From: SAR116 cluster bacterium AG-337-N21 | GTDB taxonomy: Bacteria > Pseudomonadota > Alphaproteobacteria > Puniceispirillales > Marisalimonadaceae | Assembly: GCA_003282145.1 (NCBI GenBank) | Contig: QBZZ01000011.1 | Location: 1 to 63,362 of the forward strand | Reading direction: 5' to 3' | Length of the DNA: 63,362 bases | Shown here: in pieces, positions 7,429 to 9,606 of the stretch | Numbering within the stretch: position 1 is the first letter of the stretch | How the letters are laid out: every line of letters begins with the position of its first letter | Notes under the pieces: generated by a model | What the model was told of the DNA's origin: nothing | Seen by the model: the letters and a program-made list of their open reading frames with translations, nothing else | The model's database searches: none | Made by a program: the position numbers and the translations under genes

Positions 7429-7851
7429 TTAAACCGATTTTAAAGCAATTTGCCTTGGTTTTCTCTCTTCCGGAATTTCTCTTAAGAGGGAGATTTTCAG
7501 TAAACCATTTGATAACTTTGCATCTTTAACATCAACATATTGTTCTAATCGAAACTTTTGTTCAAAAGATCTTTTTGCAATACCTTTATATATATATTGG
7601 ACGTTGTCGTCTTGAATTTCTGAACCACCATTGCCTTTAATAGTAAGAACACCGTCATGAACATCTATAGAAATATCTTTTTTGTTGAAGCCGGATAAAG
7701 CTAAAGTTATTTCATATTCATCTTCAGAAATTCTTAAAATATCATGGGCAGGAAATGAATTTTGTTTTTGTGTTGAAATTGTCTCTAGTTCATTGAAAAG
7801 GTTATCAAAACCTACAAAAGAACGTAAAGCGAGTGTTGGTAATATAGTCAT
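7429..7851 (-). CDS. Small heat-shock protein, Hsp20/IbpA family
   Basis: 140 residues from the chosen start. An alpha-crystallin domain covers about residues 35-130: PAHDILRISEDEYEITLALSG, SIDVHDGVLTIKG, the IAKRSFEQKFRLEQYVDV segment and the ADLKNGLL-like AKLSNGLLKISL strand, with a C-terminal RKPRQIAL (I-x-L/I-like tail). It is an ATP-independent holdase that keeps unfolding proteins soluble for DnaK/ClpB. The start is set by AAGGAG 6 nt upstream of this ATG; an in-frame start 11 codons further up would lie inside the leader hairpins and has no ribosome site. Expression is probably controlled by heat twice, by a sigma-32-like promoter and a thermometer leader. Confidence 0.93.
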   Translation of the reverse strand: MTILPTLALRSFVGFDNLFNELETISTQKQNSFPAHDILRISEDEYEITLALSGFNKKDISIDVHDGVLTIKGNGGSEIQDDNVQYIYKGIAKRSFEQKFRLEQYVDVKDAKLSNGLLKISLLREIPEERKPRQIALKSV

Positions 7852-7853
7852 TT

Positions 7854-7934
7854 TTAGCTCCTTATAAAGCGAGTTAATAAACATTCCATTATGGCAATGT
7901 TAGTTTTTTATTGAGTGATCCATTATGGCATCAC
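7854..7934 (-). promoter_or_regulatory. ROSE-type RNA thermometer in the hsp20 leader, three hairpins
   Basis: On the minus strand the leader contains three tandem hairpins of the same design: a 3-nt loop, a 3-bp apical stem, one bulged G on the 5' side, then a longer lower stem. Hairpin 1 is 7934-7915 (lower stem GTGAT/ATCAC), hairpin 2 is 7901-7880 (AACATT/AATGTT); both share the core GCCATAATGG. Hairpin 3 is 7877-7854 and contains the Shine-Dalgarno AAGGAG (7863-7858) in its 3' arm, paired with CTCGCTT in the 5' arm. The 5'-UCGCU-3' opposite AGGA with a bulged G is the defining ROSE motif (UYGCU) of alphaproteobacterial small heat-shock genes. Read by hand from sequence; folding energies not computed. 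Confidence 0.85.
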
Positions 7935-7940
7935 TTAATT

Positions 7941-7970
7941 CATTTAGGTGTTGAAAAACTGATTTTCAAG
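7941..7970 (-). promoter_or_regulatory. Sigma-32 (RpoH)-like promoter for hsp20
   Basis: Minus strand: CTTGAAA at 7970-7964, a 15-nt spacer, then CCTAAATG at 7948-7941. The first element equals the RpoH -35 consensus; the second is a partial match to the C-rich -10. Transcription would begin near 7935, which puts the first thermometer hairpin at the extreme 5' end of the mRNA and gives a leader of about 85 nt. Confidence 0.65.
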
Positions 7971-8004: not shown

Positions 8005-9606
8005 TTGAAGATTGATAAATGTCTAGATACATTAATCGTGGGTGCAGGTTTTGCTGGCATGTATATTTTACATAAACAAATGTCAGAAGGGTTTAAAGTT
8101 GAAATATTTGAACAAGCTGATGATGTTGGTGGAACTTGGTATTGGAATAAATATCCTGGGGCTAGATGCGATATTGAAAGTATGGATTACTCTTATTCTT
8201 TTTCTGAAGATCTACAACAAGAATGGAATTGGAAAGAAAAATATGGAACACAACCTGAGTTACTTGAGTATGCAAAATTTGTATGTAAAAAATTTGGTTT
8301 AAGAAAAAATATTAATTTTAATACTAAAATTATTAAATCAAAGTTTTCAAAAGAAAAGCAAAAATGGATTGTGACAACAGATAAACAAAAAGTTATAGAA
8401 TGTGAGCACTTAATTTTAGCTACTGGAAATTTGTCGACGCCAAATACTCCAAAAATCCCAGGATTAAATAACTATAAAGGGAATATATATCACACGGGAG
8501 CATGGCCTGGGAAAATGCCCGATTTTAATGGTAGAAAAGTTGGAATAATAGGTACAGGTTCTTCAGCTGTTCAATCTATTCCTATAATCTCTAATACTGC
8601 TGAAAAATTAATAGTGTTTCAAAGGACGCCTAATTTTAGTTTACCTGCTAGACATAGAGATCTTCCTAAAGATAAAAGAGAGGAATATAAAAAGAACTAT
8701 AAAAAATATCGTCAACTAGCTAAAAATTCATCTTTCGGAATTGCAAAATATCAACCCCCTACACAATCAACTTTTGAAGTAAGCGACGAAGAAAGAAATG
8801 TTATTTATGAAAAAGCTTGGCAAGAAGGCGGACAAGCAATGTTATTTGCATTTACAGATTTACTCATTGATGAAAAAGCAAACGAAACTGCGGCTGAATT
8901 TGTGAGAAATAAAATAAGAAAAATTGTTAATGACAAAGAAACAGCTGAAAAACTATGTCCCAAAAACCATCCAATTGGAACTAAAAGACTGTGTTTAGAT
9001 AGTAACTATTTTGAGACATATAATAAAAAAAATGTTTCTCTAATAGATATTTCTAATGAACCAATTGAAAAAATTACAGAAAAAGGATTGTTTACCAATA
9101 ATATTGAATATTCTTTTGACGATTTAGTATTTGCTACAGGTTTTGATGCAATGACAGGTGCAGTTAATGCTATTGAAATCTTAAATGATGAGGATGTAAG
9201 CTTAAAATCTAAATGGTCTGATGGTCCCAAAACATATTTAGGGATGATGGTATCCAATTTTCCGAATTTGTTTATGATAACTGGACCTCAAAGTCCAGGT
9301 GTAAAAAGTCAAATGATTTTATCAATTGAACAACATGTCGACTTTATTCATAATTTAATAATTCACAAAAAAGATAATAAATACAGAAAAGTAAATGCAA
9401 ATTCTGTAAATCAAGATAAATGGGTTAATCATAATAATGAAGTTGCTAATGCAACTTTATATCCGTTAGCTCATTCTTGGTATAATGGTGATAATATTGT
9501 TGGTAAAAGTAAAGGATTTATGCCGTATGTTGGAGGTGTTGCCAATTATAAAAAAATATGTGACGAAAAAGTCAGTAATAACTATGAAGGGTTTGAATTC
9601 TCTTAA
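8005..9606 (+). CDS. FAD/NADPH-dependent Baeyer-Villiger-type monooxygenase
   Basis: 533 residues, the normal size for type I Baeyer-Villiger monooxygenases, which insert oxygen next to a ketone to give esters or lactones. FAD-binding Rossmann motif VGAGFAGMY (residues 12-20), the GGTWYWNKYPGARCD signature (42-56), the family fingerprint YKGNIYHTGAW (157-167, FxGxxxHxxxW with Tyr for Phe), the NADPH Rossmann motif GIIGTGSSAVQ (180-190) and the conserved GTKRLCLDSNYFETYNKKNV block are all present. TTG start with AAGGAGG 5 nt upstream. The following enolase-superfamily and thioesterase genes suggest a small catabolic cluster. Substrate not predictable. Confidence 0.9.
   Translation: MKIDKCLDTLIVGAGFAGMYILHKQMSEGFKVEIFEQADDVGGTWYWNKYPGARCDIESMDYSYSFSEDLQQEWNWKEKYGTQPELLEYAKFVCKKFGLRKNINFNTKIIKSKFSKEKQKWIVTTDKQKVIECEHLILATGNLSTPNTPKIPGLNNYKGNIYHTGAWPGKMPDFNGRKVGIIGTGSSAVQSIPIISNTAEKLIVFQRTPNFSLPARHRDLPKDKREEYKKNYKKYRQLAKNSSFGIAKYQPPTQSTFEVSDEERNVIYEKAWQEGGQAMLFAFTDLLIDEKANETAAEFVRNKIRKIVNDKETAEKLCPKNHPIGTKRLCLDSNYFETYNKKNVSLIDISNEPIEKITEKGLFTNNIEYSFDDLVFATGFDAMTGAVNAIEILNDEDVSLKSKWSDGPKTYLGMMVSNFPNLFMITGPQSPGVKSQMILSIEQHVDFIHNLIIHKKDNKYRKVNANSVNQDKWVNHNNEVANATLYPLAHSWYNGDNIVGKSKGFMPYVGGVANYKKICDEKVSNNYEGFEFS

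Follow-up and report, generated by a model that had tools for sequence, protein, structure and literature searches.

The SAR116 cluster bacterium AG-337-N21 carries a small heat-shock gene (hsp20) behind a short leader made up of three hairpins, and the question raised by this locus is why a leader whose last hairpin covers the Shine-Dalgarno (SD) sequence should carry the same bulged G in the two hairpins ahead of it. The window, by which is meant the whole stretch of DNA that was analysed, comprises 63,362 nt of contig QBZZ01000011.1 (assembly GCA_003282145.1). Within it the leader occupies the minus strand from 7852 to 7941 and consists of approximately 85 nt with three hairpins, each having one 5' bulged G (Table 1).

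Table 1. Elements of the hsp20 locus, in window coordinates.
Feature	Position	Strand	Details
Heat-shock (sigma-32-like) promoter, putative	7942..7970	minus	CTTGAAA at 7970-7964 and CACCTAAAT at 7950-7942; start site predicted
Hairpin 1	7934-7915	minus	GTGAT(G)CCA-TAA-TGGATCAC; bulged G at 7929
Hairpin 2	7901-7880	minus	AACATT(G)CCA-TAA-TGGAATGTT; bulged G at 7895
Hairpin 3	7873-7858	minus	CTC(G)CTT-TAT-AAGGAG; bulged G at 7870; UCGCU facing AGGA of the Shine-Dalgarno
hsp20 (IbpA-type small heat-shock protein)	7429..7851	minus	ATG at 7851-7849; PF00011, E 1.6e-16

The hsp20 product shares 39% identity with E. coli IbpA, and the closest named relatives belong to the SAR116 cluster alphaproteobacteria. 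Aligned with E. coli IbpA it retains Arg93 and Lys98, with Phe at the position of Tyr34 and Gln at that of Arg97; of the features of a self-repressing small heat-shock protein (sHsp) of the IbpA type, Arg93 together with an aromatic residue at 34 is present (R, F) and positive charge at both 97 and 98 is lacking (Gln 97, Lys 98). The SD of the gene is AAGGAG, with 6 nt between AGGAG and the ATG of the PF00011 ORF. A heat-shock-like promoter just upstream, claimed in the preliminary description, finds support in the presence of CTTGAAA and CACCTAAAT and of an RpoH in the genome that scores above its family cut-off. The promoter pattern, which was fitted by eye, is matched by 22 of the 31 SAR116 leaders aligned below and is incomplete in 9, eight of which retain TTGA at -116 to -119 and one of which (L055) has neither. 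The intergenic region is common to hsp20 and a divergent gene for an FMO-like flavin monooxygenase (window 8005-9606, plus strand). The same genome encodes a second hsp20 (L002; contig C12:21109-21483, plus strand), which starts one base past the stop of a 94-aa ORF and whose protein has Asn at the position of IbpA Arg93 and Thr at that of Lys98; a ROSE leader was looked for upstream of this paralogue and was absent.

The three bulged-G hairpins of the hsp20 leader are confirmed as real, both within the window and by comparison with related leaders. Two copies of GCCATAATGG occur in the window, both in the hsp20 leader, where 0.07 would be expected, and none of 100 shuffles held two. For the 93 nt from 7941 to 7849 the predicted folding energy is -17.5 kcal/mol (z -2.44), a stability equalled by 4 of 200 shuffles. 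An alignment was built from the window leader and those of 30 loci with at least 71% protein identity, and five loci with 37-43% protein identity (L063-L067) were kept out of it and handled separately. Run on these 31 SAR116 leaders without a supplied structure, RNAalifold returned exactly three hairpins with three single-base bulges. Under a hand-defined structure, whose cells are not independent events because the leaders are related (with a median identity of 0.68 and ten clusters at the 85% level), standard pairs make up 97.2% of 742 cells (85.6% in shuffles), changes on both sides affect 85 cells (27.8 in shuffles, 0-13 with the partners slid), and the covariation score is 0.385 (0.177 in shuffles), values that 0 of 500 shuffles reached in each case. 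Double-changed pairs (11 vs 9.5, reached by 61 of 500) and further pair types (27 vs 25.1, reached by 96 of 500) were not clearly more numerous than in shuffles.

Double changes are found in six of the eight pairs of hairpin 1 and five of the ten pairs of hairpin 2, and the 31 leaders contain 21 distinct lower stems for the former and 15 for the latter. In hairpin 3, four of the six pairs are invariant and none is changed on both sides, because one of its arms is the SD. The bulge column is G in every leader for hairpins 1 and 3 and in 30 of 31 for hairpin 2, the exception (L036) having its bulged G one column earlier. All 31 leaders place U(U/C)GCU opposite an SD with AGGAG, so that the assignment of hairpin 3 as a ROSE-type SD hairpin is upheld. 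RNAalifold and the pair counts likewise bear out the common plan with a 5' bulged G in each hairpin, and covariation, at first noticed within the single leader, holds there and across species. The homologs have kept the pairing, a point on which the preliminary description had been made to depend and which was checked over all 31 leaders. Chance hairpins are ruled out by the shuffles.

The form extends through much of the family. A covariance-model search of related genomes, proposed earlier, recovered the three-hairpin leader under stricter filters in 31 of the family's 58 genomes, spread over 4 genera and each with a single strong site (E 6.0e-22 to 2.7e-15), the other matches listed having E above 0.04. 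Within the window's genus 40 genomes were searched, and the same 20 hold both a strong leader site and a close hsp20 ortholog. Among seven loci outside its training set, model R1 matched L066 and L067 at E up to 1 and left L063, L064, L065, L068 and L002 unmatched at that threshold.

The window leader is very probably a three-hairpin RNA thermometer of the ROSE type, a reading in whose favour published ROSE biology is counted (PMC3669281; PMC13104619) and whose heat response we infer from ROSE elements that have been studied. The heat-shock promoter would give rise to an hsp20 mRNA whose leader folds once made, and hairpin 3 would mask the SD through the weak pairing and bulged G seen in its anatomy. 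Warming would open hairpin 3, as studied ROSE elements lead one to expect, with Hsp20 being made mainly in heat, and hairpins 1 and 2 would remain folded. The bulged-G core of these two would then act as a stable 5' scaffold or as a recognition site for Hsp20; as a recognition site it would allow Hsp20 to repress its own mRNA when unoccupied by unfolded protein.

Folding across temperatures, which had been suggested as a check on the thermometer, agrees with it in part: the energies point in the expected direction, and the predicted opening of the SD is shallow with no sharp transition. Over the 31 leaders the mean energy at 25°C is -3.3 kcal/mol for hairpin 3 and -8.9 and -10.1 kcal/mol for hairpins 1 and 2, and the minimum free energy (MFE) reaches zero at a mean of 51°C for hairpin 3 and of 71 and 74°C for hairpins 1 and 2. 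Deleting the bulged-G column from hairpin 3 raises its value from 51 to 72°C, a predicted stabilisation that agrees with the Pseudomonas leader, in which deletion of the matching SD-hairpin G is reported to abolish regulation (PMC3669281). In the window leader the SD openness predicted for 37°C is 0.33, which drops to 0.06 once the hairpin 3 G is removed and does not change on removal of the G of hairpin 1 or hairpin 2. Computed with ViennaRNA, mean SD openness over the 31 leaders is 0.14 at 10°C and has reached only 0.24 by 42°C without sharp melting, a shallow opening that is to be read as a limit rather than as support, since nearest-neighbour folding omits the non-canonical pairs reported for ROSE. 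The window leader is flat on this measure (0.33 to 0.34) because its MFE structure takes another register of hairpin 3. In this single-sequence fold hairpin 3 adopts GCUUU/GGAGC with the bulged G paired (window 7849-7873, minus strand), a register made possible by the C that follows AAGGAG, which among the 31 leaders is found only in the window, L033 and L034.

The bulged G of the upstream hairpins is not confined to this lineage. The Rfam consensus structures of ROSE, ROSE_2 and ROSE_3 each include an upstream hairpin with a 5' bulged G, and the feature was surveyed in a class-wide set of 110 loci (80 chosen regions and 30 loci) among the matches listed, together with 7 others, an hsp20 ORF being present in 116 of the 117 (all but L146). 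ORFs scoring at least 100 bits were classed as IbpA-type (56), and omission of L002, which has no ROSE leader, and L065, whose leader is the same as that of L178, gave 54 leaders, 51 of them alphaproteobacterial and three not (L066, E. coli ibpA and ibpB); 48 of the 54 come from 47 genomes and 35 families among the matches listed. From the region between -135 and -27 of each leader the two hairpins of greatest stability were taken, either unbulged or with one bulged base of any kind on either arm; presence of a ROSE SD hairpin was no condition for including a leader. As controls, the same procedure was applied to those 61 of the 68 lower-scoring hsp20 ORFs that have an ATG and enough upstream sequence, with starts set by a simple SD rule.

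Among the matches listed, 49 of the 54 IbpA-type leaders have at least one upstream 5' bulged-G hairpin, 28 have two and 5 have none; 77 of their 98 hairpins carry the 5' bulged G, as against 3.8 per shuffled set, and the control leaders gave 0 of 66 hairpins and 0 of 61 leaders. The single-base bulges in these upstream hairpins comprise 77 5'-G, three 5'-A/U and five on the 3' side (again among the matches listed). MFE folding of the upstream stretch, with L065 included, yielded 56 5'-G bulges in 55 leaders as against 1.2 in shuffles, 13 of the 55 leaders being without one. Two upstream bulged-G hairpins are present in E. coli ibpA and one in ibpB. Beyond the alphaproteobacteria, 44 leaders gave the 5'-G in 41 of 64 hairpins (1.5 per shuffled set), with at least one such hairpin in 29 leaders and none in 15; this set combines the best matches to E. 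coli IbpA (17 of 26 positive) with 18 hand-picked genomes (12 of 18 positive).

The core around the bulge is itself conserved, usually as Y/G-[G]-C-C opposite G-G-R/C. Immediately above the bulge the pair is C-G in all 56 SAR116 hairpins and in 69 of 77 others, and C-G follows as the next pair up in 49 of 56 and 71 of 77, respectively; the pair below the bulge is pyrimidine-purine in 54 of 56 and 57 of 77, with G-C in 19 of the 77. The antisense strand, examined as a control, holds mirror hairpins with a 3' C, a necessary consequence of strand complementarity, in smaller numbers (34 vs 56 in SAR116, 44 vs 77 elsewhere). Two families depart from the pattern. Nine leaders of family f166 (L219-L227), which we take to be Vibrionaceae or Vibrio-like, place a ROSE-like UAUUGCUU opposite AGGAUA at the SD; upstream they have no clean CC/GG bulged-G module, and two of the nine register a weak, differently shaped 5'-G hairpin. 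In L254 and L255 of family f157, presumably Pseudomonas-like, the best upstream hairpin has a bulged U rather than G, a natural exception.

The upstream bulged-G module is thus a property of the ROSE family at large and not of SAR116 alone. The preliminary description had taken a bulged G in all hairpins to be new, a claim that must be withdrawn given the three Rfam consensuses and the further leaders counted above (49 of 54 and 29 of 44). Invention of the repeated module within SAR116 is ruled out by the Rfam consensus lines and the 49 of 54 other IbpA-type leaders. In the literature searched, the bulged G of upstream ROSE hairpins is undescribed; the founding ROSE papers lay outside that search, and a description may be in print. 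A search for SAR116 together with RNA thermometers returned 0 papers.

Why hairpins that are not expected to open should keep this G bears on a wider gap: what the 5' hairpins do in ROSE elements is described in print as incompletely understood (PMC3669281). One reading, plausible without being probable, is that hairpins 1 and 2 form a stable 5' scaffold that protects the mRNA and prevents misfolding of the SD hairpin, the bulged G tuning stability or avoiding over-stable helices. Their clearly greater predicted stability relative to hairpin 3 is in keeping with this, and so is much of the Pseudomonas work, in which melting of hairpin I is not seen, regulation persists with the SD hairpin by itself, disruption of hairpin I causes derepression at 25°C, and the authors suggest that hairpin I aids folding or mRNA stability (PMC3669281). 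According to the same source, B. japonicum ROSE1 becomes less responsive when its first three hairpins are removed (PMC3669281). Stability, however, needs no G in particular, yet the bulges are overwhelmingly 5'-G (77 vs 3 and 5, among the matches listed). The scaffold role is ranked somewhat ahead of an Hsp20 recognition site.

The recognition site is the more doubtful possibility: the upstream bulged-G hairpins, perhaps all three, might be an operator for the oligomeric sHsp itself, with free Hsp20 attaching simultaneously to several identical bulged-G hairpins and silencing the mRNA and unfolded proteins titrating it away, and if this were true the leader would sense temperature and aggregation load together. 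In E. coli, IbpA binds its own 5'UTR and represses its own translation, for which Arg93 and an aromatic residue at 34 are needed; it acts as oligomers, also represses IbpB, and is said to favour structured RNAs such as thermometers over any mRNA (PMC10474464). Two or three copies of one bulged-G hairpin would be well matched to a protein that forms oligomers, and the hairpins recorded above for E. coli ibpA and ibpB are consistent with such a role. Arg occupies position 93 in 54 of 56 IbpA-type ORFs as against 10 of 68 other hsp20 ORFs among the matches listed, the two without it being E. coli IbpB and the SAR116 paralogue that lacks a ROSE leader. The window protein has both Arg93 and Phe34. 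The association of Arg93 with the leader may nevertheless reflect common descent alone. IbpA is thought to act on rpoH mRNA as well, and the first 400 nt of the E. coli rpoH gene, examined with 17 nt of upstream sequence, showed no 5'-G-bulged hairpin among the best listed, which speaks against the module as the feature recognized. The Gln of the window protein at Arg97 also counts against an operator, since self-repression is lost in E. coli IbpA when residue 97 is Ala, and so do the f166 leaders, in which the clean module is missing although the IbpA of V. harveyi acts as a repressor of its own leader (PMC10474464). The boldest extension, which we consider unlikely, is that every ROSE hairpin is built on one bulged-G motif, the leader being a multivalent sHsp operator as well as a thermometer and the motif, conserved between alpha- and gammaproteobacteria, supplying the RNA determinant still missing from the account of IbpA self-repression.

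Cooperativity, proposed at the outset as a chain of thermosensors melting together and sharpening the response, is improbable and not favoured: the core geometry is the same in all three hairpins, and on the same rough scale a value of 69°C is obtained for the known E. coli SD hairpin, near the 71-74°C of hairpins 1 and 2, so that neither energies alone nor absolute predicted temperatures decide the matter, but over the same leaders hairpins 1 and 2 are predicted to be on average ~20°C more stable than hairpin 3 and, as the better argument, Pseudomonas hairpin I is reported to stay closed up to 50°C (PMC3669281).

With this leader a marine lineage, SAR116, joins the bearers of ROSE thermometers through an element that the Rfam models overlook. 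Of wider importance than the SAR116 case is the single bulged-G core carried, among the matches listed, by 49 of 54 further IbpA-type leaders and by 0 of 61 controls. This narrows mutation to one base, with IbpA proteins that have or lack Arg93 as the partner to try it against.

Measured against the Rfam ROSE models, the window leader falls below the gathering scores, at 23.5 vs 65 bits for ROSE_2 and 19.5 vs 43 bits for ROSE_3, these sub-threshold matches lying on the correct strand and at the correct position; six other SAR116 leaders (L033, L037, L043, L051, L053, L059) have no ROSE family match at E up to 1. A gathering score is a database cut-off rather than a biological criterion, and by anatomy the element is a 5' leader of an sHsp gene with three hairpins, within the range of two to four, and a U(U/C)GCU-SD hairpin with one bulged G. 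ROSE (RF00435) resembles it in having a consensus bulged G in the first and SD hairpins, although the window is unmatched by this model among the matches listed, even at E up to 10; the alphaproteobacterial relative L063 reaches 35.3 bits against its gathering score of 45. ROSE_3 (RF02523) has the same bulged G in its first hairpin (GAUGCC..GGGUC), but the model contains two hairpins. The short ROSE-like ibpA leaders of Pseudomonas also combine a stable first hairpin with a weak SD hairpin containing U(U/C)GCU, and differ in having a single upstream hairpin where there are two here (PMC3669281). They are 61-62 nt long, and the very short leader that had been put forward as a new feature is therefore not one (PMC3669281). 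In the fold of the E. coli ibpA leader an extra stem encloses the first bulged-G hairpin, in contrast to the window leader; otherwise this leader and ROSE_2 (RF01832) share with the window a bulged-G hairpin ahead of a UCGCU/AGGAG SD hairpin, a CTTGAAA promoter and an sHsp gene.
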